A DNA stretch of 64,000 bases, taken from Nymphaea colorata. Lineage: Eukaryota > Streptophyta > Magnoliopsida > Nymphaeales > Nymphaeaceae. Within the stretch, counting starts at the first letter, position 1; each line of letters starts with the position of its first letter. The position numbers and the translations under genes are program-made. This document shows, one piece after another, positions 6,618-29,268 of this stretch. The notes under the pieces were generated by a model. That model saw only the letters and a list, made by a program, of their open reading frames with translations. It searched no databases and was not told the origin of the DNA. The DNA lies in contig NC_045143.1 of NCBI RefSeq assembly GCF_008831285.2, positions 6,829,503 through 6,893,502 on the forward strand, in the 5' to 3' direction.

Positions 6618-7439
6618 GCGTAGTTTGTGCATGAAATTGGTCATCATTACAACTGACTTCATCTTCTACATGTTCATGTATCAACTATACATTTAAACTC
6701 CAAATGAATAGGGTCCACACGAATTAAACTAACAACTACACAAGAATCAAACTAACAACTAAACTTTCATTGGTTGGTCAACCCAACCACAGCTATGTTA
6801 GGCTATGCAAAAAAATAGCCTAGAATGCAGGAAAACTCGAACAACTTCTACTTTGAGGCAATGCTTAATGTTTATGATTTGAGGCTTGAGCTCATCTAGA
6901 CCGATTCACAATCGCATCAGCTTCTTGTAGCCGAGACAGTATTGAAGATAATTAATGATTTGACCTTCCAATTGTTAACTATTTATCTAATAAGAAAATA
7001 GTAGGCATTTATTTTCAATTTTTAAATAAAAAGTTACGTTAAATATATACCAGTTCATGGCTTTTGTGTCCCTGTTATATTTTGCATCATTTAACCAAAA
7101 AAAGTGACAGATATATTATACATTAATATCGGCTAGGCTTTGAACCTCTACAGATCTTAGCTGTGACCTCTCTTTTGATGATTTAGTATACAGTTCTCAC
7201 AGTGTTTGGTAAAAAAAGTGCGATTTCGAAAACCATAACAAGTTTGCCAAGTGACCAATTTCACGTAGAAACCACATCTTTCTCTTACAGAAAGATCTTG
7301 ATTGGAGTCAAACAGAAAGATTTCTTCCTCTCGCAGCTCATGGCCAGCTGCCGGTTTTTTGTCGTTTTTGTGTACAGCTCATTTTAAATCATTAAAAGGT
7401 AGGGAGGCCATCTCTCCCGCAGGCATGCATTGGAACAAC
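6618..7439. other. Unresolved spacer, probable LTR remnant plus array-like sequence
   Basis: The left part directly follows the copia primer-binding site and may be a degraded LTR, but no second copy is available to define it. Positions 7230-7365 match a segment of the gene E repeat unit (GATCTTGATTGGAGTCAAAC, then CGCAGCTCATGGCCAGCTGC). No gene was seen. Confidence 0.4.
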
Positions 7440-8029: not shown

Positions 8030-8560
8030 CAACTGAGTTTTCCATGTAGAAACTACGTCTTTCGTTACATAACGAGACCCTAAGTGACTAATTTCAAGTA
8101 GAAACTACGTCTTTCGCTTCCAGAAAGATCATGATTGGAGTCAAACAGAAAGATCCCTTCCTCTCGCAGCTCATGGCCAGCTGCCGGTTGTTTCACTCTA
8201 AATAATTTAAAGATGAATGTAAAATTTATTTAGTAAAGATGGTTTTTTCCTATAATCAAACATGAGATTTTGTAGAAGCAAATGTTAAAGGTAATCAAGA
8301 GTTGATGACCCATTGGTCAAATTGACCCATGGTGTTATTGTCTTATTTATTTTATAATTAAGCTCTGGCTGCTTGTTATTGACCATCATTCGAAAAAAAG
8401 ACGCATAGGCTGTGTTTTGTTGCCTAAAAAGCATTTTCAAGTTGCCATAGTCTTGGAATTGTCTTTCAAGAACTGCAGTCGGATTTCAAATATTTAACTC
8501 CAAAATAAGGAAAAGTGATACTTATCTGCACTGTCAAACGCAGCATTAACAAAAGAAAGA
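8030..8560. repeat. Leftmost partial copy of the gene E intron repeat unit
   Basis: Motifs that recur through 11.7-27.7 kb are present in the same order: GGAGTCAAACAGAAAGATC, CTCATGGCCAGCTGCCGG, AATCAAACATGAGATTTTGT and GCTGTGTTTTGTTGCC. The unit continues without a break into the 3' end of the gene E kinase frame at 8580. Confidence 0.75.
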
Positions 8561-8579
8561 AAAGCACACCAAAGAAAGT

Positions 8580-8650
8580 CTAAGACAAGATGGCCAAACC
8601 GAAGTTTTCTGTAAAGGGACTTGCAGCCGCAGCCACCAGATTATGTGGGA
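8580..8650 (-). repeat. Repeat-derived C-terminal tail of gene E
   Basis: The last codons of the kinase frame read [20 protein letters not shown] followed by a stop. This matches the end of the J units (for example [15 protein letters not shown]...NFGLVILP then stop), with the middle codons deleted. Downstream non-coding sequence also matches the units. Confidence 0.75.
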
Positions 8651-11109
8651 TCCCATCATAAGAAGATCGGCTGGTCATCATTTCAGATACGGAAGCCATG
8701 TCCAACCAAGTTTCCATGCTTAAGCCTGCCTTTAGAGTGCTCAGAATTTTGGGCATATCTGGTCTTCCAGTTGGATCTTGTATGGCAGTCTTTGCAATCA
8801 CTGCTACTTCCCAGACTGATTGGATGTTACACCGGCCCTTCAACAATGGATCAAGTAGACTCTCTATATTTCCTCTCATGAGCATAGGCATGACCCATCT
8901 AGTGAGATCGCATTTTTCATTCGTTTCAGTGATCACTATGGCAGGCTTCCCTGTTATGAGTTCAAAAAGTACTACTCCGAAACTATACACATCACTCTTT
9001 TTAGTGAGAGTCTGTGTATAGAGATACCTGCCCATCAACAAAAGTTGGTTCAAAGACTAACTTCATCCGGTCAATGATATGTTTGTGAAGGTACAATTTC
9101 AAGGAGAAATATAGTGAAAAACAATTACTAAATGTGCAACAAACAGATTATCAGATCCCCAAATTCCCATAAAAATTAAAAAAAAAAGTGCATATACATC
9201 CTTTCCATCACGAGTACCACCCTGTTAGCAGTTTGAGTCTTTTGCTGAAGTACATGGATATGACATCTATGCCCAAAAGCATATTTAAGAATCAACTGTT
9301 AAAAATGTTTCCGTGATTTGTGGATCAAAATTTGTCAACCAAAAAGGTTGAGAGAAATTGAACTTCAAATATAAATCAAATTATTAATGCAGCACAAAGA
9401 AGTTGTTTTGATTCTTTGCCAATAAGACGGTGGAAAGTAAACAATGGAAGCACGGTGTTTTCTGATATGGAGTCCCTTGAACAAGCAGATGCACAAACCT
9501 TAAACTTAAAGCCGGACAGACACTTTGAGTGAAAGTGGATGGAATTTTCTAATGCACCACTTTGAACTTTATACTCATGAGAAAAAGGAAAAAAAGGAAT
9601 GGCGGAAAGTGACATACTCAGGATCAATGTATTCCAATGTGCCATCAATTTTGGTTTGATAAGCTGAACACTCTGTTATATCTACTAACCCAGCCTTGGA
9701 CAACCCAAAATCTGCTAATTTGGCTTGCATATTGTCATCCAACAGAATATTTGCGGTCTTGATACCTCTTTGAATGATTGCTGGTCTGCATCCTGTATGC
9801 AGATATTCTAACCCTGCAGTTCACCAGTGGGTTTACCTTATTAAGGGATAGTAATAGTAATCGAGGCAGGGAAAGGCAGAAGGGGCACTATATACGGACC
9901 TGTTGCAGCGTCCAGTGCAATCTGTAGTCGCTTTCTCCATGTCAACTCATTGTTCGTATCTGTTTTGTACAAAGCCACAATATTCACTTAAATTTAAGAA
10001 GTTGGATATACAATTCCTTTCAAATGTAAATCATAAAATTGACGATGATTTCCAAAACGTGCGTAAACATTAAGCCACATTAACGCATTGAGTTGATACA
10101 GTTGAAGGCCTTTCAAGTTCAAAGGAAAGAATAGAAAATGGCATTTTCACTAATTTGGTCAGACCACTTACTGCCTTTTGACGGCCTGGAGTATACCTTT
10201 TAATATCTCAGGGAGACTTCTCGCCATGTACTCAGACACAAGTATTATTTCATCTTGTTCTTCGCATAAACCAACTAAGGAAACCAAGTTCTTGTGATGG
10301 ACTCTCGTCAAAATCTTTATCTGCAAAAGGCCAGGGGAGGGCAATTACATAATATGCATATTATAAAATTACTTATCTGCTCTTGGCAACTAAATCTCCC
10401 CTTTTCTGGCATGAAAAGAGTTCCATTCTTTTACTTAATTGTGCAAAGCAATTAACATATAATGATACAAGTATGCACTGTGATTGTAAAAAGCAAGTAA
10501 CGAATTTTATATGCACACAAAGATGCAGTTAAGTACCTCTGCGAGGAGGTTGCCAAGTACTGAGCCTGATTCTTTCAGTTTCTTGACAGCAACCTTAAGA
10601 CCACCTTCTGGTAGCTGGCCATAATAGACGGTGGAAGACCCTCCTACGCCGATTACCTGACTGAAGTTTTTGGTAATGCTCAGAATCTCGTCGTAGGTAA
10701 AGTGATGTGTAGCCGCAGCCACCAGTGCCATTTTTTCGGTTGGTCTAGTACTTGACCTGTCACTAGCTGCGTGGCGTCCTGATTTTTTAGCTGCAAAAGG
10801 TGTTTTTCAAAAGGGGATTACATTTCTTCCTCTCGCACCTCATGGGGGGCCGCTGGTTGTTTCTCTTAAAATAAACTAAAGAAGTATGTGCAACTCATTT
10901 AGGAAATATATATATATATATATATATGTAATTTTTTTCTCATATTTATTTATTTATTTAACTAATAAGTGTTAGACAGTTGGATGCTAGACCTTCAGTT
11001 TTTTCTCCTTATTTTTTCTCAACTATCGATCTCGAAAAAAATCATTATTTCATATTTATCTCTATAGTCCATTCCCCCCCCCCCCTCTCTCTCTGTTTTT
11101 CTTATTTTC

Positions 11110-11166
<57 letters not shown>

Positions 11167-14100
11167 TTACTTCCTTGAAATGTGACCATAGAAAAGTTAG
11201 AGCATTACACCCATTGGATTAGGGTTTCATGATCTCACCATTAACAATTAGGGATGTCAACGGATCAGATTCGGATCAGATATATCCTTAATCATATCCA
11301 TTTTTTTGGATACTCATATATTCAGATTTGAATTTGGATTCAAAGAAAAGTCATATGCAAATCCCAATCTGAAATCCGATTTACAATCTGAATCTGATTT
11401 TTATATTTATATCGAAATTCAAATTTTGGACCAAATTTTACCAATTTTAAAATTTAATAACATTATATATGGGATATTTGTTTAAAAATGAATCAAATCT
11501 GAATCTGTATCCTAGTCTCATCGGATATTTATGCATATCGGAATCTGAATCTAAATATGATCGGATGCCATTTATTAAATTTGAATCCAATCTGATTTCT
11601 TAATCAGATATTAAATGTTTTTCATATCTGTTTCGGATTGGTTCGGTCGAATATTCAATTCAAATTGGATATGTTAACATCTATATTTACAATCAGAGTG
11701 AATATCACCCACTAGATTTGAACCGATTATGTGCCTTATATACAACCGTCTATTCAGCCAGCTATGCTACGTTAGTTTTGTTGTGTTCACTCTTTAAAAT
11801 TATAAAAATGGGATTACATCTCTTCCGCGCGCAGCTCATGGCAAGCCGGTGGTTGTGTCGCTCAAAATCATCCAACGACGAATGTGTAACTCGTTTAATA
11901 AAAACTCATTTAATAAAGATAGTTTTTCCAATAACCAAACATGAGATTTTGTAGAGGCAAAATAATAAATATATCAAGAGTTAGAAGGCCCATAGATCAG
12001 CTTGACCCATTAGTGTGTTTTTTCTTAATTCTATAATTTGGCGCAGGCCGCTTGTTATGGACCTTCGTTCGAAGAAAGGGCTTAAGCTTCATTTTAGGCT
12101 TTTTTCAAGATGGCTTAATCTTCAAATTGTCTTTCTCGAACTTCAGATGGATTTCAAATATTTAATTGCAAAATAAATGAAAGCCAAACTTATCTGCATT
12201 ATCAAACACGGCCTTAACAAAGGAAAGAACAACACACAAAGTCTAAGACAAAATGAACATACCGAGGTTTCCAATAACGCCCCGAAGCTTGTTGTGAGTA
12301 AAGGGACTTGCAGCCGCTGCCACTGGCGTCGTTCTGTCGGCTATTCTAGTATTCGAGGCTTGGCTAGCTACAAGGGTTCCTGATTCTTCAGCGGCAGAAG
12401 TTTTTTTTTCTGTGGCGGTTCTGCTGCCTGCTTTTGACGGCGCTGCTTGAGCTTCCATCAAGTGTTGCACGACTGTTCCTTTAACATGAGTAAGAGACTG
12501 TGAATAAGAGAGATAGTAAATGCAATTGGTGGCTGACCGATTTAGTTTTTAGAATAGTTTAAGATTTTTTATATTTTTCGTTAAAATGCAGTGACCTATT
12601 TCATGAAAAATCTATGTCCTTGCTTACAAAAAGACTTTGGTTGGAGTCAGACACCTCTAAACAAAAGGCACTTCAATTTAATTTGTTGAAGTCAAGGTAA
12701 CAATTATTTTATTTTTGCTTTCAGTTGGGTGGAAGGTTAACAAACTGTCATTTGCAAAAGAGATCCAAAGTCTTCTTCATCTCCCATTCCCAATAGATCT
12801 TGGGCTGTTTCAGATGGGGGCACAGCACACCCGTCACCTATGGCGTCATGATCCCACGTCCATTCACATTTACAAACTGAGGAAATATCACCCACATGAT
12901 TCAGACCGAGGATGCGTCTTACATGCAACTGCCAGCCAGAGCAGCTATGCTATTTTAGTTTTGTTGTGTTTAGTGTTTAAATAAAAAAAATGTGATTAGC
13001 TCATGGTCGGCTGTCACTCAAAATAATCTAAAGATGAATGAACAGCTCATTTACTAAAGATGGTTTTTTTTTCAATAATCAAACATGAGATTTTGTGAAG
13101 GCAAATATTAAAGAGATCAAAAGTTCAAGACCTATATAGATCAATTTGACCATTGGTGTTTTTTTCTTATTTATTTTATAATTTGGCACTGGCGGTTGGT
13201 TACTGACACTCAAAACAGAAAAAAAAAGGTTGAAGCTGTGTTTTATTGCTAAAAATAAAAAGCCATACTTATCTGCACTATCAAGCCCGGCCTTTACGAC
13301 AGAAAGAAAAACACACCAAAGAAATTATAAGGCAAGATGACCAGACCGATGTTTACCTGTAATGCCTAGGATCTCGTTGTCGAATTTGCAGCCGCAGCGA
13401 CCAACATTGTTATGTCGGCTGTTATAGTACTTGACACTTCACTAGCTGCATTGCTTCTTGAATCATTAGCTGTAGAAGTTGTTTTTTCCGTGGCAGTTCT
13501 ACTGTTTGCTTTGGTTAGTGCTGCTTGTGCTTCCATCGAGTGTTGCTCGTCCATTCCTTTAATAAGGAGGAGAAAGAGATAGCATGAGAGAGAGTGTGTA
13601 CGTGGATAAAATGGAAATGCATAACAACATTTGGATAAGAAGTCCCTTAGATACAAGAAAAAACCGCAAAAGCAATATAGAAAAATGAAATATATAAGAC
13701 CGCAACACATTAAAGTTGAGTAAGAAGGGAAGAGGGGAGAGAGTTGATAGAGAGCACGGCGGAGTCACATAGCTGCAAGTGAGAGATGGTGCCCAAGCTT
13801 AATAACAAAGTGGATATAACCATGCACATGACATGACATAGAATCAAGCAATGAGGAGGTGCTTGTTACGCTCCTTCCAAATACACCACCCAGAAGAGAT
13901 AATTTATAGTCTCTAAACACAATGCTAGTAAAAGGACAGATAAGAGAAAGGACAGTAAAAGAAAGAAAGCAAATGGAGGGCGGGTATGAAAGGCTACGAA
14001 CAATAAAAAGGCATATAGAGGCAATAATACTATAAAATACGTAAGATAAAAAAGGTGAACAGAGAGAGAAAGAGAAAGAGAGACAATGCAAGATAAACAA

Positions 14101-17100
14101 ACAAGGGGGTTCAATAATAAAGATTCCCCTTTTTATCAATTCTGTTACATTTTAAAATGGTTTATGATTTTCATATTTTTGTTAAAATACAGTGAACTAG
14201 GAAAAAACTATGTCCTTGCTTAAAGAAAGGACTTGATTCAAATCAAACAAAAAAAAAACGGTCCAGGCCATGTGTTTCAAACCTCGCAATAATGGCATTT
14301 CGGTTTAATTTGGTAAAGTCGATGGAAAATTTGTTTTGTCACTTCCGAAAGAGATCCAAAGTCTTCCCCATTCCCCTTTCCTTTCAGGTATTGGGCTGAC
14401 TCTGGACTTTGGACGGACATGATACACCCATGAATTAAAGCATCGTCTTTTTACCATTTACAGTCTGAGGTAATATCACCCACGAGTTTTGAATCAGTGA
14501 TGCACCTTATGGTCACTCTTTTAAATTAAAACAATAGGATTACTTCTCTTCCTTTGGAAGCTCATAGTCATGGCAGGCTGCCGGTTGTTTCACTTAAAAT
14601 AATCCAAAGATGAATGTGAAACTCATTTAGTAAAGATGGTTTTTCCAATAATCAGACATGTGATTTTGTATTGGAAATATTAAAGATATAAAGAATTGAA
14701 GACATCTAGATCAATTTGACAAATGGTGTTTTTTTTATTTATTTTATAATTTGGCGCAGGATGCGTGTTATTGACCTTCATTCAAAGAAAGGAGGCCTAG
14801 GGTGTGTTTATTACCTAAATAGCTTTCTCAAGTTGGCTTAATCTTGAAATTGTCTTTCAAGAGCTTCATACGAAATTTCAAATATTTATCCATACTATCT
14901 AACACGACCTTAACAAAAGAAAGAAAAACACACCAACGAAAATCTAAGGGAAGATGACCAGACCAATGTTTCCGGTAATGCTCAGGATCTCCTTGTCGGT
15001 AAAAGTACTTGCAGCTGCAGCCACCGGCGTCGTTCTGTCGGCTCTTCTACTACTCGACACTTTGCTAGCTACATTGCTTCCTGAATCTATAACTGTAAAA
15101 GTTGTATTTTTCGTGGCCGTTCTGCTGCCTGCTTTGGTCGGTGGGGTTTGAGCTTCCCTCGAGTCTTGCACCGCCGTTCCTTCAACTGAAAGAAAAATAG
15201 GATAGGGAGAGAGAGGAGCAGAACAAAAATTTCACATTATTAGCAAAACACCCAACAAGAGGAGCTTACACAGGTACTGGAAACACCACAGTACAATAGC
15301 ACAAACCTAGAAAACCAAATATTCAAAACCATGAGAAAAAAAGGGCAAGCCAAAAATATTCAAAACCATGAGTAAAACAGCCCCCTTCATGAAGTATTAC
15401 ATAACCAACGTAAATAACAAAGCCAAAAACAACAACTAAAGAAGAAAGCGAAAGGGGAAAGAGCTAGAAACCAGACACCATGAATCCAAGTAGCATGAAC
15501 CGAAGCAAAAAAAAAAAAGTAGAAATCACCCACGAGTAGGATGCGTCTTATATGTCCTCATGATCCCATGTCCATTCACAAACCAAGGGAATATCATCCA
15601 CGAGTAGGATGCATCTTATATGCAACCGCCAACTTGTTGTGTTCAGTGTTTAAATAAAAAATTTGGGATTACACAACTTCCTCTCACAGCTCATGGCGGG
15701 ACACCGGTTGTTTCACTCCAAATAATCTAAAGATGCAGGGTTTTCCAATAATCAAACATGAGATTTTATTGAGGCAAATATTAAAGATATCAAGACTTGA
15801 AGACCCATAGATCAATTTCACCATGTTATTTATTTTATAATTTGGCACTGGCTGCTTGTTGTTGACCTTCATCCGAAAAAAAAAGAAGGCTTTGGCTGTG
15901 TTTTACTGCCTAAAAAGGTTTTTCAAGAATGCTTGATCTTGACGTTGACTTTCAAGAATTTCACACGGATTTCAAATGTTTAACTGCAAAATAAAGAAGA
16001 GCCGGTACTTATCTGCAATATCAAACACGGCCTTAAAAGAAAGAAAAACGGACGAAAGAAAGTCTAAGGCAAGTTGACCAGACCGAAGTTTCCTGTAAAG
16101 CTCAGAATCTCGTTGTCAGTAAAGGGACTTGCAGCCGCCGCCACCAGCTTCGTTTCATCAGCCGTTTTAGTGCTTGACACTTCTCTGGCTGCGTTGCTTC
16201 CGGATTCTTTAGCAGCGGAAGCTGTTTTTTCCATGGCAGTTCTGCTGTCTGCTTTGGTCGGCGCTGCTTGAGCTTCCATCGAGTGTTGCACTACCATTCC
16301 TTCAAAAAAAAGTGTGTGAAAGAGAGACAGATAGTTCATGCAATTGGTGGCTGTCCGATTTGTAGGCCATTTGTTTGTTTCAGTTATATTTTGAAATTTT
16401 TTAAGATTTTTGTTATTTTTCGTTAAAATACAGTGACCTATTTCATGAATAATTACGTCCTCGCTTACAGAAAAATCTTGATTGGAGTAAAAAACACAAA
16501 AGTCTAGGCCATGTGTTTTAAACCCTCTAAATAAGAGGCACGTCAATTTGATTTAGTAAAGCCATAGAAATTTTCGTATTAGCTTTGTTTTCAGGTGAGT
16601 CCGAAGTTAACAATCCACCATTTAGAAAAGAGATTTTAAGTATTTCTCATTGGCCCTTCCCTGACACGGTACACCAATCAACGAATGCATCATGATCATC
16701 CCAGCATTTATAGTCCGAGGGAATATCACCCACCTGATTTGAACTGATGATGCATCTTATATCCGACCACCTGTCCAGCCACCTTGAAATAAAAAAAATG
16801 AGATTACATCTCTTCCTCTTGCAGCTCATGGCTGGCCGCTGGTTCTTTTGCTCAAAATAATCCAAAGATGAATGCTCAAGTCATTTGGTAAAGTTGGTTT
16901 TTCCAATAATCAAACATTTGATTTTGTAGAGGCAAATATTGAAGATATCAAGAGCTGAAGACCCATGAGATGGATTTCAAATATTTAATTGCAAAATAAA
17001 TAAAATTCAAACTTATCTGCATTATCAAACAAGGCCTTAACAAAAGAAAGAAAACCACCACACACAGTCTAAGACAAAGTGAACATACCGAGGTTTCCAG

Positions 17101-20100
17101 TAATGCTTAGGAGCTTGTTGTCAGCAAAGGGACTTGCAGCCTTAGCCACCGGCGTAGTTCTGTCGGCTATTCTAGTATCCGACACTTGGCTAGCTGCAAG
17201 GCTTCCTGATTCTTCAGCAGCAGAAGTTTCTTCTTCTGTGGCCGTTCTGCTGCCTGCTTTTGATGGCGCTGCTTGAGCTTGAAGACCTGTAGATCAATTT
17301 GACCCGTGGTGTTTTTTTCTTAGTTATTTTATAATTTGGCACTGGTCGTCGGTTGTTGACCTTCACTCCAGAAAAAAAAAAAAGGCTGAGGTTCTGTTTT
17401 ATTGCCTAAAAAACTTTTTCTAGATGGCTTCATCTTGAAATTGTGTTTCAACAACTTCACAGACGAACTTTAATGTTTAACTGCAAAATGAAGAGCCATA
17501 CTTATCTGCACTATCAAGCGCGGCCTTAATGAAGAAAGAAAAACACACCAAAGAAATTCTTAAGCAAGATGACCAGACCGAAGTTTTCGGTAATGCTTAG
17601 GATCTCGTTGTCGGGTAAGGGATTTGCAGCCCCAGCGACCAGCATCATTCTGTCGGCTGTTATAGCACTTGATACTTCACTAGCTGCATTGCTTCCTGAA
17701 TCTTTTGCTGTAGAAATTTTTTCGGTGGCGGTTCTGCTGCCTGCTTTGGTCGGTGCCGCTTGAGCTTCCATCGATTGTTGCACCTTTGTTCCTTTAATAA
17801 GGAGAAAGAGATAGTGAGAAAGATTGTGTGTGTGAATGCAAGATTGACAAACTAACGGGTTCAATAATAAATATTCCCCTTTTTATCAATTCTGTTATAT
17901 TTTAAATTATTTAATATTTTTATATTTTTGTTAAAATACAGTGAACTATGAAGAAACTATGTCCTTTTTTTTGAGAAAGATCTTGATTGGAATCAAACAA
18001 AAATGCCAGGGCCATGTGTTTCTAACCTCTCAATAAAGGCACTTTAGTTTAATTTGGTAAAGCCAATGAAAAATTTGTTTTTACCACTCCAGAAAGAGAT
18101 CCAAAATCTTCCCATTCCCCCATTCCTTCAGATATTGGGCTGTCTCCACTTTGGTGGGACATGATACACCCATTAATTAGAGCATCGTGTTCCTCCCATT
18201 TACAGTATGAGGGCAGCCCAACCAGCTATGCTACTTAAGTTTTGTTATAATCACGCTTTTAAATAAAAAAAAGTAGGATTACTTCTCTTCCTTTTGCGGC
18301 TCATGGCAGGCTGCCGGTTGTTTCACTCAAACTAATCCAAATCCAAAGATGAATGTGCAACTCATTTAGTCAAGATATTGTTTCCAATAATCAAACATGT
18401 GATTTTGTATTGGAAAATATTAAAGATATCAAGAGTTGAAGACCAATAGATCAATTTGACAAATGGTGATTTTTGCTTATTTATTTTATAATTTGGCCCA
18501 GGATGCTTGTTATTGACCTTCATTCAAAGAAAAAAGGATTGGGGTGTGTTTTATTAACTAAATGGCATTCTAAAGATGCTTAATCTTGAAATTGGCTTTC
18601 AAGAACTTCATACGAATTGCAAATACTTATCCGCACTATCAAACACGACCTTAACAAAAGAAAGAAAAACACACCAACTAAAATCTACGAGAAGATGACC
18701 AGACCAAAGTTTTCGGTAATGCTCAGGATCTCCTTGTCAGTAAAGGTACTTGCAGCTGCAGTCACCGGCATCATTTTGTCGGCTCTTCTAGTACTCAATG
18801 TTGGGTCGGGTCCAGCCTCAAGACCCGACCCGGCCCGTCACTTAAGTGACGGGCGGGAGAAAGGAAGGGCACCCGATGGTGCCCCTTCCTCATGGTCCTC
18901 TCTTACGTCTCTCTCTCTTGTTATCTCTTTTGGGGAAAATGAGAAGGGACCCCTTGTGGCTGCATACGGGAGGAGAAGGAGAAGGAGAAGAAAAAGAGGA
19001 AGGCAAAGAAGAGAAGAGGAGAAGCAAGGCGCGTGGGTCGATTGGCACGCCAAGAAGAAAGAGGAAAGACAAAGAAGGAAAAATGAAGGAAGTCTTCATT
19101 GGGTGATTTCTTTCTTGAATCTTTGAGGCTTTTTCTTTCATTCGCATAAGAGATTGTTATTGTTCTCTTGAGTTCACTGTTTTTTCTTAAAACAGTAGGG
19201 ATATTGTTGCTCGTGTATTTGGCTCCCTTTCTTGATATATAGAAAGTCTCTCTTGCCCGTGGTTTTTTACCCCATTATTGGGGGTTTTTCCACGTAAATT
19301 GGTGTCTTCTTTTTCTGCATTATTTAGGATATATTTTGACGCATATTGCTGCAATAGTGGTGTTGGAAACTCGTTCTTTTACTCGCTGCCCTGTGATTCC
19401 GTTTTTAGCAGTTTTGTGGTGGATTGCCTTTTTTATTGTTGTTGAGCATTCTTTTGGGGGACACGGCTATAACAAAGTGGTATCAGAGCCAGGTTAACAC
19501 CAGGTTAGCGCCAGGGTGGTTGTGTGCATTCTTATTGAAGGATGGAGTCGACCCCTACTAGAATGGTCTCTTTAAATTTGAACAATTGGACTATATGGAA
19601 AGCAAAAATGGAAGATTTGCTGTATTGTAAAGACTTATATGCACCCATTGAGAACCAGAAGCCAGCGAATATGACAGATGAAAAATGGAAGTTATTGGAT
19701 AGGAAAACCATTGGCACCATCAGACAATGGTTGGATGACTGTGTTTTTCATTTGGTATCCGCAGAGACGAGCGCGAAGTCGTTATGGTAAAAGTTGCATG
19801 ATCTTTACGAGAGAAAAACAGCTGGGAACAAGGCTTTCTTGATTAGGCAATTGGTAAATCTGAAACTTAGAGAGGAAAAACCAGTGTCAGAGCATTTGAA
19901 TGAAGTACAAAGCATAATCAATCAGTTGTCAGCCATGAAAATGATATTAGATGATGAGTTACAGGCACTCTTGTTGTTCAGTTCTCTTCCCGACAGTTGG
20001 GAGACTTTAGTTGTTTCTTTGAGCAACTCCGCTCCAGATGGTGTGCTTACGATGAAGCATGTAACTAGCAGCATTCTAAATGAAGAAAGAAGGAGAAAGT

Positions 20101-23100
20101 CTCTTGGTACTGGTAGCTCGCAAGTGTTAGTGATGGGAGACAGGGACAGACAGAAGAACCGTAACAAATGGCAAGACAGATCAAAATCCAGGTCCAAATC
20201 AAGACCAAAGATGACAGGTAAATGCTTTCACTGTGGTATTCTAGGGCACAAGAAGATTGATTGCAGAAAATGGAAAAAAAAAAAAAGCAGAAAAAGAAGA
20301 GTCAAGAGAATGAGAAGCCAAAAGAGTACACTGCAGTTGCTTCAGATGATGAGGTAATGTTATTTTTATCTGAAGAAAATGATTGTCTTACAGTTCAGAA
20401 TGGTGATTCTACATGGATTTTAGATACAGGGGCATCATATCATGCCACACCATGTAGAGAGTTATTCTTATCCTACAGAGCAGGTTATTTTGGAGTAGTT
20501 CACATGGGCAACAGTGACACTTCAAAGATTGTTGGGATAGGAGATGTTTGCATTCAGACGAGCACAGGATGCAAGTTGACTTTGAGAGATGTGAGACATG
20601 TTCCAGACTTGAGAATGAATTTGATTTCTGCAGGAAGACTAAGTGAAGATGGATATTGTACTTTGTTTAGTCAGACAGATTGGAAACTCATCAAGGGGGC
20701 ACTAGTGTTGGCTAGAGGTGACAGATTTGGCTCTTTGTATGGGATGAAGTCTCGAATCAATAGTGTGGATGTCAATGCAGTTACTGGTGGTACTTCGTCA
20801 GATTTGTGGCATAAGAGGTTAGGTCACATGAGTCAAAGAGGAATCGACTTGTTCACCAAGAAGAATTTGTTACCAAAGGCAGATGGTGCACAGATATCTC
20901 CATGTGATCATTGTTTGGTTGGTAAGTTGCATCGAGTTTCCTTTCAGAAAAAGCGCTCTTCAAAAACTAAATATGTTTTAGATTTAGTTTATTCTGTGGA
21001 TCTATAAATGTGACATCTAAAGGTGGAGCATCCTATTTTGTTACATTTATTGATGATGCATCTAGGAAGGCGTGGGCCTTTATAATGAAAAGCAAAAGTG
21101 AAGTAAGTAGCATCTTCATGACTTTTCATGCAGCGGTTGAGCGCGAGACTGGCAAGAAGATGAAGAGACTGCGTACAGATAATGGTGGTGAGTACATAGC
21201 ATCTTCTTTACGAGATTATTGTTTAAAACATAGTATTAGACATGAAAAGACAGTTCCTTATACTCCACAGCATAATGGAGTTGCAGAAATGATGAATAGA
21301 ACAATAATCGAGAGAGTTAGAAGTTTGTTATCTAGCTCTAAGTTGCCTAAGTATTTTTGGGCAAAGGCAATACGTACTGCAGTTTATTTAATAAACAGGT
21401 CTCCTTCAGTGCCTCTAGATGGAGACATTCCACAGAGGGTTTGGTCAGATGAAGAGGTTAAGTATGATCACCTCAGAGTTTTTGGTTGCAAAGCGTTTAT
21501 GTATGTACCTAAAGAACATAAGACCAAATTAGATGATAAAGCTATTCCTCTAATATTTCTTGGTTATGCAGATGATGAATTTGGTTACAAGTTATGGGAT
21601 CCAGAGAATAACAAAATGTTCAGGAGTCGTGATGTTGTTTTCAGAGAGGATCAGACTATTGAAGATGTCATGGGAGACACGAAGTCAGGTGTGAATGCTA
21701 GTGGTGTTCATGAGCCAACCTATGCAGAACCTGAAGAACTTTCATCTGAGCATGGTGAGACTGATGAAGATGTAGAGGAAGAGGAAAGAGAGACAGATGA
21801 GCAGTATACAGATGGCAGCCCTATGGAGACTCAAACTGATTATGAGCATGAGTTGGAGGGGGAGCTTCCTTCGCATTCAGAGCCAATTGAGGAGCAATTG
21901 GGTAGAGCTAAAAGAACACGTATACCATCTACTAGATATTATACTGATGAATATATTATGTTTACAGATAGTGGAGAGCCAGAATGCTATGCAGAGGTGC
22001 TAGATGATGTGCATAAAGATGAATGGATTAAAGCTATGAAGGATGAGATGAATTCTTTATACAAGAATCACACTTTTGATTTGGTAGAGCTACCAAAAGG
22101 TAAGAAAGTGTTGCAGAACAAGTGGGTCTACAAGCTTAAAAATGAAGGTCAAGGCAAGTTGAGATACAAAGCTCGGTTAGTAGTGAAAGGTTTCAAGCAG
22201 GAAAGAGGTATTGATTTTGATGAAATTTTTTCTCCTGTTGTTAAAACGTCATCTATCAGGGTAAAATACTTGGTTTGGTGGCCTGTCTAGACTTGGAGTT
22301 GGAGCAGTTAGATGTAAAAACTGCTTTTCTTCATGGAGATCTAGAGGAAGAAATCAACATGACACAACCAGAATGTTTTGTGGTTGTCAGGAAGAAACAC
22401 ATGGTTTGTAAGTTGAAGAAGAGCTTGTATGGACTTAAACAAGCACTTAGACAGTGGTACAAGAAATTTGATGCATTTATGATAAATCAAAAGTATCGCA
22501 GGTCAGCCGTAGATCATTGTGTCTACATCAGAGAGTTCTCATCAGGTAGCTTCATTATATTGTTGTTATATGTAGATGACATGCTTATTGTTGGACAGGA
22601 TTGTCAATTGATTAGCAAATTGAAGATCGATATGGGCAAGTTCTTTGATATGAAAGACTTGAGACCAGCACAACAAATGTTAGGCATGAGGATTGTTCGT
22701 GATAAGAAGGCCCAGAAGTTGTGGTTATCACAAGAGAAATACATTGAGAAGGTGATTAGTAAGTTCAACATGAAAGATGTCAAAACTGTAAGTACACCTT
22801 TAGCAGCACATTTTAAATTGGGAAATGAGCAATGTCCTTCTTCAGCAGATGAAAAAGAAAGAATGGAGAATGTTCCATATGCCTCCGCAGTAGGGAGTCT
22901 CATGTATGCTATGGTTTGTACACGCCCAGATTTGGCTTATGCAGTTGGTGTAGTTAGCAGGTTCTTGTCAAATCCAGGCAAGGAGCATTGGGCAGCAGTG
23001 AAGTGGATCCTAAGGTATCTGAAAAGTACTTGTACTTACTGTTTATGTTTTGGTGAATCTAATCCAAAGATACAAGGATTTGTTGATGCAGACATGGCAG

Positions 23101-26100
23101 GTGACTTGAACTCTAGGAAGTTTCTTTCTGGTTATGTTTTTACTTTTGTAGGGGGAGTTGTATCATGGCAGTCCAGATTGCAAAAGTGTGTTGCTTTTTC
23201 CACTACAGAGGCAGAATATATTGCAGCAACTGAAGCTTGTAAAGAGTTGTTGTGGATGAAGAGTTTTCTTCATGATATAGGCCTTAGTCAGAAGATTGTG
23301 ATAGCCAAAGCGCTATTCACTTGGCGAAGAATTCAGCGTTCCACTCAAGGACCAAGCACATTGATATCATCAGATATCATTGGATTCGTGATGTGCTTGA
23401 GCAGAAATTGATTCAGTTAGAGAAGATACAGACAGAGAAGAATCCTGCAGATATGATGACGAAGTCTCTACCTAGAGAGAAGCATGACATGTGTAGAGAC
23501 TTAGTTGGGATGACTGCCTTTAAGGCAGTGTATTAATTTTGTTCATTTTGCAGGTATGATCCCTCTCTTGAGGCTGGAGGGGGAGTTTGTTGGGTCGGGT
23601 CCAGCCTCAAGACCCGACCCGGCCCGTCACTTAAGTGACGGGCGGGAGAAAGGAAGGGCACCCGATGGTGCCCCTTCCTCACGGTCCTCTCTTACGTCTC
23701 TCTCTCTTGTTATCTCTTTTGGGGAAAATGAGAAGGGACCCCTTGTGGCTGCATACGGGAGGAGAAGGAGAAGGAGAAGAAAAAAAGGAAGGCAAAGAAG
23801 AGAAGAGGAGAAGCAAGGCGCGTGGGTCGATTGGCACGCCAAGAAGAAAGAGGAAAGACAAAGAAGGAAAAATGAAGGGAGTCTTCATTGGGTGATTTCT
23901 TTCTTGAATCTTTGAGGCTCTTTCTTTCATTCGCATAAGAGATTGTTATTGTTCTCTTGAGTTCACTGTTTTTTCTTAAAACAGTAGGGATATTGTTGCT
24001 TGTGTATTTGGCTCTCTTTCTTGATATATAGAAAGTCTCTCTTGCCCGTGGTTTTTTACCCCATTATTGAGAGTTTTTCCACGTAAATTGGTGTCTTCTT
24101 TTTCTGCATTATTTAGGATATATTTTGACGCATATTGCTGCAATAGTGGTGTTGGAAACTCGTTCTTTTGCTCGCTGCCCTGTGATTCCGTTTTTAGCAG
24201 TTTTGTGGTGGATTGTCCTTTTTATTGTTGTTGAGCATTCTTTTTGGGGACACGACTATAACACTCAACACTTCGTTAGCTGCATGGTTTCCTGATTCTT
24301 TAGGTGCACAAGTTGTTTTTGTCGGCATTGCTTGAGCTTCCATCGAGTGTTGCACCACCGTTCCATTAACTGAGAGACAAAGGGAGTGAGAGAGACACAT
24401 AGACAAAAAAAAAAGAAGAGCAAAACAAAATTTTCAACATTATTAGCAAAACATCCAAAAACAAGTTAGGAGCTTAGAGATGTACTGAAAACACCTTAGT
24501 CCAACAGCACAAACCAAAAAAAACCAAATAATCAAAAACCTGAGAAAAAAGAGCAAGAAAAAAACACAGCAGGAGTACCCTCATCAAGAGTAAATCAGCC
24601 CCCTTCATGAAGCAATACAAACGTAACCAACGTAAACAGCCACATGAATCGAAAAACCAGGAACCAAGGCCAAAACAACAACTAATGAATGAAGGCAAAA
24701 CCCAAAAGAGCTAGAAACCAAACACCTTGAATCCAAGCAGCATGAACTGAAGAAGGAAAAAGCAGAAATCGAAGCAACACCAGAACAAACATAAGCAGCG
24801 CGACCTCCCAAGTCCCAAGCATTAAGTGATAACAGCAAAGCTCAATGAAACAGTTGAATGGCAGCAGCGAACCCTCGACAACTGTTACACCACATCCCAA
24901 CAGCAAAGGTCCAACACCAAAGGCTTTGGCTGTGTTTTACTGCCTAAAAAGGTTTTTCAAAAATGCTTGATCTTGACATTGTCTTACAAGAATTTCACAT
25001 GGATTTCAAATGCTTAACTGCAAAATAAATAAGAGTCCATACTTATCTGCTCTATCAAACACGACTTTAAAAGAAAGAAAGACACACGAAAGAAAGTCTA
25101 AGGCAAGATGACCAGACCGAAGTTTCCGGTAAAGCTCAAGGTCTCGTTGTCAGTAAAGGGACTTGCAGCAGCCGCCACCGGCTTCGTTTCATCAGCTGTT
25201 TTAGTACTTGACATTTCTGTGGCTCCGTTGGTTGTGGATTCTTTAGCAGCGGAAGCTGTTTTTTCCATGGCAGTTCTGCTGTCTGCATTGGTCGGTGCTG
25301 CTTGAGCTTCCATCGAATGTTGCACTACCATTCCTTTAATAGGGAGAAAGAGAGTGTGAGAAAGAGAAAGACAGATAGTGAACGCAATTGGTGGCTGTCC
25401 GATTTGTAGGCCACTTGTTTGTTCTCAGTTATATTTTAAAGTTTTCTAAGATTTTTGATATTTTTCGTTAAAATACAGTGACCTATTTCATGAGTAATTA
25501 TGTCCTCGCTTGCAGAAAAATCTTGATTGGAGTCAAACACAAAAGTCCAGGACAAAAGTCAGGCATGTGTTTTAAACCCTTTAAATAACAGGCACGTCAA
25601 TTTGATTTAGTACAGCCAAGAAAATTATTCTTTTAGCTCTGCTTTTAGGTGAATCCGAGGATAACAATCCACCATTCCCAAAAGAGATTTTTTAAGTATT
25701 TTTGGTTGGGCCTTTTAAATACGTCTTGAGCAAGAGTTGGGTGGGATAGGTTTAGGGTTTAGGTTTAGGATTTAGGACGGCATCATGATCATCCCATCAT
25801 TTATAGTATGAGGGAAAATCACCCACCTGATTTGAACTGATGATGCATCTAATATGCGACCACCTGTCCAACCACTACTTATGTGCACTATCAAATACGG
25901 CTTTTATGAAAGAAATAAAAACACACCAAATAAAGTCTAAGGCTAGAATGAACAGACCGAAGTTTCCGATGATCCTCAGGATCTCATTGCACGTAAAGTG
26001 ACGTGCCGCTGCAGTAACCGGCGTCGTTCTGTCTGCCGTTCTCTTACTTGACATTTCGCAAACTGCATGAATTCCTGATTCTTCGGCTGCAAAAGTTGTT

Positions 26101-27316
26101 TCTTTCAAGAAGTTTTCAATCCCTGCTTTTCCCGGCACTGCTTCCGCTTCCATCGAGTAATGCACCACCATTCCTTTAACAGGGTGAAAGCGAGAGTGAG
26201 AGGGAGTGAAAGCAATTGGTGGCTGACCAATTCGATGGCCATTTTTATGATGCCAATGGTTAGTTTTTATTTACTTTTTAAAATAATAGGTTTTTATATT
26301 TTTCGTAAAAATGAAGTGACCTATTTCATGATGAAACTATGACCTTGCTTAGAAAAGTATCTTGATTGGAGTAAAACACAAAAGTCCAGAACATTTGTTT
26401 AACCGTCCCAAAAGAGGCACATCAATTTAATTTAATTTTGTGAAGCAATGGAAAAACACATTTTTAGTTTTATTTTCAGGTGAGTGGAGAAGTTAACAAT
26501 CCACTGCTAAGAAAAGAGATCCAAGGTCTTCCCTATTCCTTTTTTCCTTTTCGGTCATGGGTTGTGTTGGGACTTCAGTCGAGACGGCACATCTATCAGT
26601 TAAAGTGTTATGATTTGCCACTTACACCCCAAAAAAATAACACCCTCGAAAATGAAACGGACAATTTACCTTTCAAGCAACCACATGCACAACCCACTAC
26701 CCTACTTTAGTTTTTGTTGTGTTCAGTGTTTTAAATAAAATAAAGGGATTACATATCATCCTATCGCTGCTCATGGTCAGTGGCCGGTTGTTTAGCTCAT
26801 AATAATCTAAAGATGAATGTGCAACTCATTTTGTAACGATGTTTTTTCAATAATCAAAACTGAGAGTTTGTAGAGGCAAATATTAAACATATCAAGATCA
26901 ATTGACTCGCGGTGTTTTTTTCTTAGTGTTTTTTTCTATACTGTACTAGCTGCTGTTATTGACCTTCATTGGAAAAGAAAAAAAAAACCTTAGACAGGGT
27001 TTTACTGCCGAAAAAGCTTTTTCAGAATGGCTTAATCTTGAAATTCTTTCAAGAACTCTTGACAGATTTTTACACATCTTCACTACCAAACACAGCTTTA
27101 GTGAAAACAAGAAAGAAACACCAAAGATAGTCTAAGGATAGATGTCCATACCGAAGTTTCCCATAATGCTCAAGATCTCACTGTAGGTAAAGTGATGTGC
27201 AGCTGCAGCAATCGGTGTCGTTCTGCATGCTGTTCTATTCCCTACTTTTGCCGGCGCTGCTTGAGCTTCCACAGAGTGATGCACCACCACCGTCCCTTTA
27301 ACGTGAAAGAGAGAGT

Positions 27317-27352
<36 letters not shown>

Positions 27353-29268
27353 ATGCAATTGGTGTCTGACCGGTTGGATGGCCAATTTTATGATGCCATT
27401 TGTTAGTTTTTTTACATTTTAAAATAATTTAAGGCTTATTATCTTCTTCATTGAAATGCAAAGACCTAGAAGAAACTGTGTCCTTTGCTTACAAAAAGAT
27501 GTTGATTGGAGTCAAACACCAAAGTCCAGGCCATATGTGTAACCAATTCAACTAGAGTGTCGTCATCCCATTGTTTACACTCCAAGGAAAAAGCACCCAT
27601 GAGACTCAAACCACATGCCCGACCAGCTGTGCTACTTTAGTTTTGTTGTGTTCACTTTTTTAAATAAAAAATGGAATTACATGTCTTATTTTCGCAGTTC
27701 AAGGTTCGGCTGCCAGTTGTGTCACTCAAAATAATCTAAAGATGAATGCACAATTCATTAGTAAAGATGGTTTCCCCAATAATCAAATATGGGATTTGTA
27801 GAGGCGAACGTTATGGATATAAGAGTTGAAAACCTAACATCAATTTAACCGTTGTTTTGTTTTTACTTTTTCTATAATTTGGCACTGGCTGCTGCTTATT
27901 GACCTTAAATCCTAAAAAAAAGCTTAGGCTGTGTTTTACCGCCTAAAAAAGGTCTTAGGCTGTATCTTGAAATTGATTTTCAAGAAGTATGGACGTATTT
28001 CAAATATTTAACTGCGAAATCAAGAAAATCCATACTAATTATATGAGCAATCAAACAAAGCTTTAACGTGAAAGGATCAGACCACAGAAAGTGTAATTAA
28101 ATACGGAAAATGGCTTTTTAACCATAGATGCCCAGGTTAGGAATCTTCTTGAGCTAATTAAATACCAACTTAATTACCTGGTTGCCCAAGATCTCCTTTT
28201 GCTGGCCTCTTCTTGTACTTCCATGAGACGGCAACTCCGATTACTGCAAACACCACGATGCCGGCCACGACGGTCCCAACCATGATGTCGAACGTCGTCT
28301 TTTCTTTGCCTTCTGGTTCAAATGGAACTGCAAAAGTTTGTCAGATTAATTGTATAGTCTGCTTGTAGCAACTAACAATTGCTGATGGCCAAGGAGAAAC
28401 TGCCCATTAAGGACAAACAGAAAGAGCTGGTTGTTGGTTCAAGTCTTATAAGCTTGGCCTGAACCAAATGTCCTGGTCGATCGAGGCAGGACAACCTTTA
28501 TTTATAAAAGGAAACAAAGTCTTGAAAGTATACCTTAGACTGCTGAAATTGTTGAAGCGGTGAAATAGGCTGCACATATAGGCCCCATGAAATCATATAA
28601 TTCGGAAGTATCTTATATATGCATAACTTTTTTTTTTTTTTTGTGTGGAGTGTATTTAAAGGGTTCTTTAGTAAGTTCTAACTTAAATATTAAGTTAGAT
28701 TCATGAAGCATATAATGCAGTGCTTAATGAACCTGCCTCAATATTTAAAGCAAATTCAACATTCACATAGCATTCTTGCTGTCAAACGGCCTCTTAAAGA
28801 TGTATCATCTTTTTGCTACAAATCCGCCCATTTTAGCTTCTGACGTTAGGTGGAATAAGACGTGTCAAAAATCGATATTGAGAAAGTAAAGTAGTGAATG
28901 GATTTCAGAATATTGTTAAACAACCTATACAGTAAATGGCTAATTAATGTGGTAGAACAAACGTCAAAATTTGATTTCATGCAGTATAGTAGGGTTAATC
29001 GTTTCAAAAATCTCCTGATTTCCTTTTTCCACCTAAGAAATTAGCCTCATTACCAATTATAACTTGTAATGCAAGCACGAAAGCATCGGAAAGTTTTGCA
29101 GATTAATTTGCAAGCCCCAACCAACATTTAAGACATCCAATTCTCTGAAAGCGGAAAGCCGGAAAATTAATTACAGTAATGCTCACCATATTGACCATCA
29201 ACGACAGAGGTGAAGAGAGCCGCAGCGATAAAATATGAGAAGAGGTTTCGCTTGAAATGGATCACCAT
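8580..29268 (-). CDS. Gene E: ectodomain-poor receptor-like pseudokinase spanning about 20.7 kb
   Basis: The predicted exons on the minus strand are 29268-29187 (signal peptide), 28327-28178 (transmembrane), and kinase exons 10790-10537, 10320-10197, 9959-9900, 9813-9618 and 9027-8580. All junctions are GT/AG with matching phases, and the sum is 1314 nt (437 aa). The signal peptide covers residues 1-25, a short acidic/basic linker follows, and the membrane helix is about 42-63 ([20 protein letters not shown]) before KYKKR. The kinase domain starts near 105. It has a glycine loop [11 protein letters not shown], the VAVKK lysine, an ADFGLSK magnesium motif and [16 protein letters not shown]. 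The catalytic loop reads [13 protein letters not shown]: the HRD histidine and the catalytic aspartate (about residue 239) are replaced. It therefore looks like a kinase-dead receptor. The kinase resembles the malectin/LRR RLK kinases at 32-47 kb. A 17.4 kb intron carries the J1-J10 exon array, and some copies could be spliced in. Expression and the exact splicing are inferred. Confidence 0.6.
11050..11165. repeat. Poly-C/(CT)n and (TA)n microsatellites
   Basis: A run of about 12 C followed by CT repeats lies near 11071-11092. A TA run of about 50 bp follows at 11113-11162. A shorter TA run occurs near 10908-10927. Confidence 0.9.
11249..11690. mobile_element. Probable non-autonomous DNA element (MITE-like)
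   Basis: An AT-rich block begins TAGGGATGTCAACGGATC and ends in sequence whose reverse complement is TAGATGTTAACATATCC. That gives imperfect terminal inverted repeats. Inside are many variations of AATCTGAATCTGATT and its complement. There is no coding capacity. The family and target-site duplication are not established. Confidence 0.4.
12263..12478 (-). other. J1: juxtamembrane exon copy, intact borders
   Basis: This copy is 216 nt with acceptor TTAAAG and a strong donor CCTCG/GTATGT, phase 1 at both ends, and is open throughout. It encodes a Ser/Thr/Ala-rich segment ([20 protein letters not shown]), then [20 protein letters not shown]. It is type A of the four unit types. It is the best candidate, with J10, for an exon that could really be spliced into gene E. 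Confidence 0.6.
13347..13556 (-). pseudogene. J2: broken juxtamembrane exon copy
   Basis: This type B copy ([19 protein letters not shown]) has lost the SPFTDNE codons through a small deletion. That shifts the frame to an in-frame stop (TRS then stop). The acceptor AAAG is kept. Confidence 0.6.
13590..14150. other. Array spacer with A/G-rich inserted stretch
   Basis: This segment between J2 and J3 is longer than in the other units and rich in GAGAGA and AAAGAAAG. The long minus-strand open frames rich in Leu/Phe/Ser follow from this composition. I see no gene. Confidence 0.4.
14964..15179 (-). other. J3: juxtamembrane exon copy, open frame
   Basis: This 216 nt copy has acceptor TTGAAG and a weak donor position ATTG/GTCTGG. 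It is type C ([19 protein letters not shown], then [12 protein letters not shown]). If not spliced out, the frame runs to VIFP and a stop. Confidence 0.55.
15215..15525. repeat. Insertion shared with the J7 unit (matches 24425-24780)
   Basis: An A-rich block contains CATTATTAGCAAAACA, GCCCCCTTCATGAAG, AACAACAACTAA and ATGAATCCAAGTAGCATGAAC. It is collinear with 24425-24780 and sits at the same place in both type C units. Its origin is not recognised. Confidence 0.7.
16084..16299 (-). other. J4: juxtamembrane exon copy, open frame
   Basis: This 216 nt type D copy ([20 protein letters not shown], then [14 protein letters not shown]) has donor position TTCG/GTCTGG, which is weak. Its closest relative is J8. 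Confidence 0.55.
17089..17280 (-). pseudogene. J5: truncated juxtamembrane exon copy
   Basis: This type A copy has the strong CCTCG/GTATGT donor like J1 ([18 protein letters not shown]). Its 5' end and acceptor are missing: at GAGCTT/GAAGACC it is fused directly to the downstream part of the neighbouring unit. Compared with J1-J2, about 0.6-0.7 kb has been deleted. Confidence 0.65.
17579..17791 (-). other. J6: juxtamembrane exon copy, open frame
   Basis: This 213 nt type B copy ([20 protein letters not shown], then [12 protein letters not shown]) has acceptor TTAAAG and weak donor GTCTGG. Unlike its partner J2 it is open to the end. Confidence 0.55.
18705..18798 (-). pseudogene. J7, 3' part: juxtamembrane exon copy split by the copia insertion
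   Basis: This type C copy ([17 protein letters not shown]) is interrupted after TACTCAA by the LTR at 18799. The exon resumes at 24264. The acceptor of the other half has changed from AAAG to AATG, so this copy is dead for splicing as well. Confidence 0.75.
18794..18798. repeat. Target-site duplication, left copy (CTCAA)
   Basis: This identical 5 bp sequence follows the right LTR at 24264-24268. Five bp is the usual copia size. Confidence 0.9.
18799..19474 (+). repeat. 5' LTR of the copia element
   Basis: It starts TGTTGGGTCGGG and ends GGCTATAACA. Compared with the 3' LTR by eye, it differs at about 13 of 676 positions, mostly transitions, with no length change. A TATATAG box lies near 19233. 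Confidence 0.95.
19478..19490 (+). promoter_or_regulatory. Primer-binding site (initiator Met tRNA)
   Basis: TGGTATCAGAGCC starts four bases after the LTR end and is complementary to the 3' end of plant initiator tRNA-Met. Confidence 0.93.
19542..20300 (+). pseudogene. Copia Gag with nonsense codon
   Basis: The frame starts at ATG 19542 ([19 protein letters not shown]) and carries UBN2-type Gag sequence. A TAA at 19788-19790 follows SAKSLW, after which the same frame resumes with [22 protein letters not shown] knuckle [14 protein letters not shown] lies near 20223. Right after it is a run of 13 A (20274-20286), where the frame changes to that of the protease. Confidence 0.9.
20300..21007 (+). 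pseudogene. Copia protease and GAG-pre-integrase region
   Basis: The aspartic protease motif [15 protein letters not shown] is intact near 20408. The GAG-pre-integrase zinc-binding pattern (LWHKRLGHM ... CDHCLVGK) lies near 20805-20925. The frame ends at TAA 21005, where bases appear to be missing before the integrase core. Confidence 0.9.
21010..22290 (+). pseudogene. Copia integrase and start of reverse transcriptase
   Basis: The integrase core shows [19 protein letters not shown] and the glutamate in [14 protein letters not shown], so all three acidic residues of the DDE triad are present. An acidic linker follows, then the first RT block (NKWVYKLK ... [20 protein letters not shown]). The frame is lost near 22262, just after SSIR. 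Confidence 0.9.
22275..23536 (+). pseudogene. Copia reverse transcriptase and RNase H
   Basis: The RT continues with [35 protein letters not shown] and the catalytic [11 protein letters not shown]. RNase H shows [10 protein letters not shown] and [16 protein letters not shown]. Near 23300 the frame shifts, disturbing the [11 protein letters not shown] block, and the last part ([14 protein letters not shown] ... [11 protein letters not shown]) is in another frame ending at 23536. Confidence 0.92.
23571..23587 (+). promoter_or_regulatory. Polypurine tract
   Basis: AGGCTGGAGGGGGAG lies immediately 5' of the 3' LTR, as needed for plus-strand priming. Confidence 0.8.
23588..24263 (+). repeat. 3' LTR of the copia element
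   Basis: This 676 bp LTR has the same ends as the 5' LTR and about 98% identity by eye. It is followed by CTCAA. Confidence 0.95.
24264..24364 (-). pseudogene. J7, 5' part: remainder of the split exon copy
   Basis: The exon sequence resumes after the target-site duplication (minus strand [11 protein letters not shown]). An internal deletion removes part of the Ser/Thr-rich region, and the acceptor AG is lost. Confidence 0.7.
24425..24915. repeat. Longer copy of the type C insertion (matches 15215-15525)
   Basis: It shares ordered motifs with the block at 15215 and extends further right. The minus-strand reading is rich in Leu/Phe/Cys codons without a recognisable domain. The block is unrecognised, possibly a retroelement 3' end. 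Confidence 0.55.
25118..25333 (-). other. J8: juxtamembrane exon copy, open frame
   Basis: This 216 nt type D copy ([20 protein letters not shown], then [14 protein letters not shown]) has an intact acceptor and weak GTCTGG donor. It is the pair of J4. Confidence 0.55.
25958..26173 (-). other. J9: juxtamembrane exon copy, open frame
   Basis: This 216 nt copy ([16 protein letters not shown] ... [20 protein letters not shown]) has an intact acceptor and weak GTCTGT donor. It lies outside the ABCD blocks and is closer to the true kinase exon in the HFT part. Confidence 0.55.
27152..27295 (-). other. J10: short juxtamembrane exon copy next to the transmembrane exon
   Basis: This 144 nt copy has acceptor TTAAAG and a good donor TTCG/GTATGG, phase 1 at both ends, and is open. 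It lacks the Ser/Thr-rich middle but keeps [17 protein letters not shown] and [20 protein letters not shown], very like the real kinase exon ([18 protein letters not shown]). As the first array copy after the transmembrane exon, it is a strong candidate for a genuine gene E exon; inclusion would give 485 aa. Confidence 0.55.
27313..27350. repeat. (GA)n microsatellite
   Basis: About 30 bp of GA repeats lie just upstream, in the minus sense, of the J10 acceptor. This gives a CT-rich polypyrimidine stretch before that splice site. Confidence 0.9.

Follow-up and report, generated by a model that had tools for sequence, protein, structure and literature searches.

An eight-unit array of truncated exons in ABCD-ABCD order inside one intron of a receptor-like kinase gene of Nymphaea colorata

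Tandem exon duplication, reportedly described by Kondrashov and Koonin in 2001, leaves an exon and its flanking intron duplicated within one gene, the copies being compatible in phase. Unequal crossing-over is the source of higher-order repeats such as those of alpha satellite and the super-repeats of nebulin, in which a block of several units is itself repeated and sister units lie at a fixed offset. Among plant receptor-like kinases, the proline-rich extensin-like receptor kinases (PERKs) carry a proline-rich ectodomain, and an active kinase of this class is expected to have the VAIK lysine, HRD and DFG motifs. In Drosophila Dscam, similar in-phase exon copies that are mutually exclusive are lined up in one intron stretch (excerpts of PMC1397879 and PMC6071210). 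Clusters of mutually exclusive exons are also reported from plants, their similarity suggesting tandem exon duplication (excerpt of PMC6071210), and tandem exon duplication is remarked on in general terms elsewhere (excerpt of PMC2674458). Among the matches listed in our literature searches, no title or beginning of an abstract concerned a plant receptor kinase with an exon array, which is not proof of absence.

We analysed a window of 64,000 nt of the N. colorata genome (contig NC_045143.1, positions 6,829,503 to 6,893,502); positions below are those of the window except where chromosome 6 (C6) is named. In gene E, encoded on the minus strand, a 17.4-kb intron separates the membrane exon from the first kinase exon, and the original prediction placed ten copies of a juxtamembrane/start-of-kinase exon between them. 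All ten (J1 to J10) were found inside this intron, on the minus strand (Table 1). The prediction holds, but the copies are not whole exons: each unit spans almost the entire intron together with ~76 codons from the front of the kinase exon, and this exon piece ends in NFGLVI. Adjacent copies of exon and intron within one gene, in compatible phase, are what tandem exon duplication produces; gene E differs in that only the front of the exon was copied, its 3′ end being a breakpoint, and in having ten copies and a four-unit super-repeat. The predicted extent of 11700 to 27700 needs adjusting, since the two-block array itself spans 11794-25875 and unit-like sequence continues to ~28.1 kb.

Table 1. 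Gene E and its intron array: positions in the window. A slash marks a splice boundary
Feature	Position	Strand	Remarks
Probable signal-peptide reading frame, gene E	29170..29268	-	similar frames in paralogs F, G, M
Membrane-spanning exon, gene E	28178..28327	-	acceptor GCAG/TTCC, donor CCAG/GTAATT, phase 1; sites from sequence; similar exons in paralogs
J10	27150..27290	-	frame ~75 nt shorter; donor-like G/GTATGG
J9	25956..26177	-	open frame; runs past usual TAG
Block B (J5-J8)	16784..25875	-	interrupted by copia 18799-24263
J8, pair of J4	25116..25337	-	
J7 5′ part, pair of J3	24269..24364	-	cut by copia
Copia-type LTR element, inside exon J7	18799..24263	+	LTRs 18799-19474, 23588-24263
J7 3′ part	18703..18798	-	
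J6, pair of J2	17577..17795	-	3-nt deletion; open frame; runs past usual TAG
J5, pair of J1	17087..17284	-	5′ end lost at 17279 junction; donor-like G/GTATGT
Block A (J1-J4)	11794..16782	-	
J4	16082..16303	-	
J3	14962..15183	-	
J2	13338..13560	-	7-nt deletion and 1-nt insertion; early stop after NSTTRS
J1	12261..12482	-	donor-like G/GTATGT
C0: 5′-shortened J (eleventh copy) fused to first kinase exon	10537..10790	-	possible acceptor TTTTGCAG/CT, phase 1
Remaining kinase exons K2-K5	8640..10317	-	matches 10317-10195, 9957-9898, 9817-9614, 9029-8640
J 3′ part grafted on kinase tail, then unit intron	8153..8639	-	twelfth J fragment

A DNA search of the genome (a 407.8-Mb assembly in 783 contigs) with one unit returned at least 51 matches, 51 of 51 on C6 between 6.612 and 6.857 Mb, and a search with the J peptide at least 24, 24 of 24 in the same stretch and evenly divided between the window (12) and its surroundings (12); these counts are lower bounds. 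A transposable element as the source of the unit was rejected, all of these DNA and protein matches lying in one chromosome 6 cluster. In that cluster, at C6 6612075-6857040, some twelve kinase genes related to one another share the minus strand, several of them broken by stops; our survey of it covered 240 of 284 kb.

J corresponds to the front of the first kinase exon (C0-type) in eight paralogs (F, H, G, I, K, M, N and O), and truncated J-type copies are also carried by four loci other than gene E, namely N, O, P and the broken Q. A single exon-to-intron join is common to the J copies of gene E and to these four: NFGLVI of the juxtamembrane/kinase exon passes directly into sequence whose place in the paralogs is ~100 bp into the intron that follows the membrane exon. 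At this point the exon reads GGTCATCGG in several paralogs, the intron reads CTCTAGCCTTAGAC in paralog K and similarly in F, G, H and P, and J-type copies read GGTCATCTAGCCTTAGAC (O) or a close derivative; the 3′ end of the J exon is a duplication breakpoint. We infer one founding tandem duplication, of a segment that began ~100 bp into the intron and reached codon ~76 of the exon; its ends overlap by 2 bases at the join, and the event would have placed TAG directly after the exon piece. This duplication is probably older than the array of gene E, since single truncated-unit copies exist in paralogs of the cluster. An exon tree of 22 rows puts the J-type rows on one side with modest support (82/70). 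Each exon half alone needs two changes of type, with no starred conflict, and J-type and C0-type copies may have exchanged sequence.

The J copies are similar in sequence and equal in phase, J5 and J7 being without the usual acceptor. That phase-1 acceptor AG is kept in eight of the ten copies (J1, J2, J3, J4, J6, J8, J9 and J10), and is lost in paralog copy P as well. Cutting a J piece at G/GT leaves phase 1 too, so that the piece is symmetric; it measures 216 nt in J1, J8 and J9. Of 14 J-type copies, 13 (all but Q) have GT at the donor position, G/GTATG being confined to J1, J5 and J10. In most J copies the donor is GTCTGG, which fits the plant donor consensus poorly. GT and the G at +5 are unchanged in 13/13 J-type copies, and the same bases are found in 7/8 and 8/8 C0-type exons; as these C0-type exons are unspliced there, conservation in J-type copies is no proof of a donor. 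An in-frame TAG follows ATC directly in O and P, and three codons on in J1, J3, J4, J5, J7, J8, J10 and N. Three of the eight block copies are broken: J2 is frameshifted, J5 has lost its start and J7 is cut by the copia element. In the raw sequence of 12 of the 13 copies (J7 omitted), frames are open up to or past NFG in 11, J2 stopping early.

The eight units J1 to J8 had been predicted to form an ABCD-ABCD arrangement, and blocks A and B are indeed collinear and 86-87% identical. With the copia element removed from B and one target duplication kept, global alignment gave 3330 aligned columns, 2907 of them identical (87.3%); all 22 full 150-column windows of this alignment were 80-92% identical, and two milder gap settings gave 85.6-86%. 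The best BLASTN pieces were 89% identical for J1/J5, 83% for J2/J6, 83.5% for J3/J7 and 83% for J4/J8, other unit pairs reaching mostly 65-80%. This offset-by-four collinearity is far beyond chance. It matches higher-order repeats such as alpha satellite and nebulin in that a multi-unit block recurs with offset sisters closer than neighbours and collinear along the block, and it differs from them in having two blocks only and in lying inside a plant receptor kinase intron.

In an exon tree of the 13 J-type copies (ultrafast bootstrap/SH-aLRT), J1/J5 (100/99), J2/J6 (96/96) and J4/J8 (100/99) were recovered, and J3/J7 fell in an open fork; by exon alone this pair is weak, and the trees of the downstream and upstream flanks both gave it 100/99. 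The 22-row exon tree gave J3/J7 57/91, placed J1-J8 in a starred clade (98/98) and joined J9 and J10 outside it (94/91). In the fixed-window flank trees, J3/J7 was the only starred pair, J4/J8 appeared upstream (93/99) and not downstream, and J1/J5 and J2/J6 appeared in neither; these trees are poorly resolved, J5 lacks its own upstream flank and J2 carries a 480-bp insertion. The whole-unit evidence for J1/J5, J2/J6 and J4/J8 is thus the collinear block alignment, not the flank trees. Sisterhood along the whole unit, as originally proposed, is borne out by the block alignment and, for J3/J7, by both flanks, and the other three pairs are unstarred in the flank trees. The proposed pairing itself agrees with BLASTN, alignment and exon trees, in all of which the offset-by-four pairs, not neighbouring units, are closest. 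The peptide marks on which it was built are present: ADRTTPVA and GTATGT in J1/J5 (ADRTTPVA also in J3), EVSS.ITAD in J2/J6, FTDKEIL in J3/J7 and TKTADET in J4/J8.

Divergence orders the events. Exon distances between units are 0.19-0.31 (J1, J3, J4, J6 and J9 compared) and between blocks ~0.12. The two LTRs of the element inside J7, which we take to be copia-type from reading-frame motifs, are 676 bp long and differ at 13 sites (1.9% divergent, 98.1% alike; K2P 0.0196), with a 5-bp target duplication, CTCAA. LTR divergence is about one-seventh to one-eighth of block divergence (0.020 vs 0.14-0.16, K2P), so the element is younger than the block duplication. The order put forward originally, of single-unit duplications, then a four-unit block duplication, then deletion and copia insertion, fits this descending series (0.19-0.31 > ~0.12 > 0.0196). 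Two stretches of A have no counterpart in block B, one of 671 bp where J5 borders J6 and one of 150 bp below J5; A in turn has an additional 480 bp beside J2 (13605-14084), flanked by AATGCA, a motif that occurs once at that place in B, and no inverted repeats were found in this insertion. Sequence of 76 bp lying below J1 (11685-11760) is found again at 16706-16781 (78%) and 25799-25874 (72%). These two recurrences leave a single base to the upper edge of A and of B, as would be expected of unequal crossing-over in register, but at the lower edge of A the match stops 34 bp before it. After the founding duplication, growth would have gone unit by unit and then by a four-unit unequal crossing-over between units, with the deletions in B, the insertion in A and the copia element in J7 as later layers. 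The higher-order array and its event order are real.

Across the 13 J-type copies there is no substitution stop, where neutral simulations (400 runs at each of 12 settings) give expected means of 8.5-15.8 and came out free of stops in 2 of 4800; the frameshift stop of J2 is left out of this count, and the broken J of Q is omitted from this test as from the trees, omega estimates and parsimony. For J1-J8 alone (8 settings), the probability of zero stops was 0.001-0.008 when flank composition was used and 0.021-0.059 when exon composition was used; for the time since the block duplication the test is weak, with P of 0.03 and 0.13, respectively. Stop codons were masked in the codon file, together with the first nine codons of J5 and the first 24 of C0 of gene E; in raw translation, the aligned codon columns hold no stop in the 13 copies except at the first codon of J5, beyond its junction.

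Since the block duplication, exons have come to differ by 12.2-12.5% and introns by 12.9-15.0%; between units, the exon stands at 0.25 vs 0.22 and 0.28 for the flanks. Summed steps by codon position are nearly alike (90, 106 and 114), and kinase-start codons took 71 of 310 parsimony steps in J-type vs 22 of 153 in C0-type copies, being slow only in the latter. Among the J branches of gene E, codon maximum likelihood (ML) put omega at 0.77 for the older ones and at 0.86 for those that follow the block duplication, neither different from 1; in N, O and P it was 1.20; the control, C0-type exons, gave 1.32, also not different from 1, and the stem-branch estimate hit its bound and was not used. As C0-type exons reach ~1.3 though surely coding, the J stretch is loosely held and omega cannot decide. 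Pairwise NG86 counts show dN below dS for some older units (0.17 vs 0.60 in J4/J6, for example), which codon ML does not confirm; pooled pN/pS was 0.77 in the four block pairs, compared with 0.71 in C0-type exons (three sister pairs). The idea that the J copies are under strong purifying selection was rejected, since neither codon ML nor exon/intron divergence upholds the NG86 hint.

Gene E itself has five kinase exons from 10790 downward, in a frame that ends at 8583. The kinases of paralogs F and G end in IPHNPVAR and a stop, whereas that of E runs on into a J 3′ part, joined where the kinase end and the J part both read CxGGTGGC; this graft, with its TAG, is the current end of the kinase frame. 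More remnants of the unit are found at 8082-8151 and 7249-7360, of which 7249-7318 repeats 8082-8151 at a distance of 833 bp. The kinase keeps the lysine and DFG, and HRD, intact in six other genes of the kinase alignment, reads QRG (9614-9817), so that the aspartate of an active receptor-like kinase is lost; at one further site gene E has glutamate (E) where the six other aligned paralogs carry G. The frame is otherwise open and pseudokinase-like. Kinase omega, computed without paralog K because its exon 4 was wrongly cut, is 0.65-0.69, indistinguishable from 1 and from the values of its relatives. Gene E looks partly decayed, though with its kinase exons open and such an omega it may not be decaying.

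By description, the gene resembles PERKs in its signal-peptide-like frame and single membrane span, and in the Pfam Pkinase match of paralog F and the proline-rich frame of paralog G; it departs from them in that no proline-rich frame was found for gene E in 28.1-29.7 kb. The frame in G lies upstream of its membrane exon.

Could the array be an artefact of assembly or collapsed haplotypes? Tandem repeats are hard to assemble, and the published N. colorata assembly was made from PacBio RSII reads (PMC7015852). Blocks, however, differ by 13-14% and units by 19-31% in the exon, the copia element that interrupts one block is younger and carries a target duplication of its own, not one N stands in the window, and paralogous genes apart from E show the exon-intron join again. 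An artefact, which would also have undone the original prediction, is extremely improbable given parts that diverge by ~12-30%, a copia element with its CTCAA, sequence free of N and a join that reappears in paralogs. What the array does is a separate matter, and the reading we consider probable is a duplication history with past splicing that has left a mostly unused array in a decaying paralog. The J copies would have been exon-like units with open frames through much of their history, probably spliced at times, either as a short alternative end (membrane exon, J and TAG) or as a cassette through a weak phase-1 donor, G/GTNTG; at present they would be splice-capable, mostly unused passengers in a decaying receptor-like kinase paralog. 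The open frames suggest past use, and present decay is argued for by an exon rate close to the intron rate, the broken J2, J5 and J7, kinase-start codons that are not slow, and QRG for HRD. Against this reading, the absence of stops argues that something kept the frames open, unlike in a purely passive array.

The J copies as alternative last exons, giving short kinase-less membrane proteins of membrane exon, one J and TAG, are a possible but unlikely account: the in-frame TAG follows J in O, P, N, J1, J3, J4, J5, J7, J8 and J10, and the kinase frame itself now closes on a J 3′ part that carries this TAG, but J6 and J9 run past it, J2 is shifted to an earlier stop, and a nearby stop in intron sequence may be chance. 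Doubtful, too, is a working array in which one J or none would be spliced between the membrane exon and C0 to vary the juxtamembrane segment. Eight copies have the phase-1 acceptor, the piece is symmetric, no substitution stop occurs in 13 copies, J1, J5 and J10 have G/GTATG donors, and the front of J, missing from C0 of gene E, would be restored by a J cassette. Yet most donors are GTCTGG, the donor bases are common to unspliced C0-type exons, J7 and P no longer have the usual acceptor AG, the exon end stems from a duplication breakpoint, exons are about as diverged as introns and three of the eight block copies are broken. Nor is there convincing docking-type pairing. Of nine stretches, each compared with 12 shuffles, none exceeded its shuffles beside the membrane exon and six did near C0, where the long matches pair a G12 tract (allowing G-U) with pyrimidine tracts of several units; these matches are of low complexity. 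A G12 tract and a long AT repeat occupy 11067-11168, upstream of C0. Improbable, too, is a Dscam-like array in which up to seven open copies (J1, J3, J4, J6, J8, J9 and J10) would offer a juxtamembrane choice or kinase-less short forms, a choice doubled by the four-unit duplication. Gene E shares with Dscam its similar, in-phase exon copies in one intron stretch (PMC1397879 and PMC6071210, excerpts), but its array shows a sign of selection only as stop absence, and several copies are broken.

The locus shows an exon array built stepwise (founding join, unit expansion, four-unit jump, decay) in an order readable from divergences. It offers a natural test of how Dscam-like arrays could begin, and of whether tandem exon pieces are spliced before selection acts. 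Should the copies prove to be used, gene E would give a noteworthy example, in a plant, of a receptor diversified by an exon array. Queries of what we take to be malectin-like type gave no credible match in 28-32 kb; the places that they did match, 36-45 kb and the neighbourhood of 59 kb, belong to other genes. A second receptor kinase group with such presumably malectin-like exons borders the cluster, at 32.4-37.4, 40.8-45.6 and 53-60 kb of the window.
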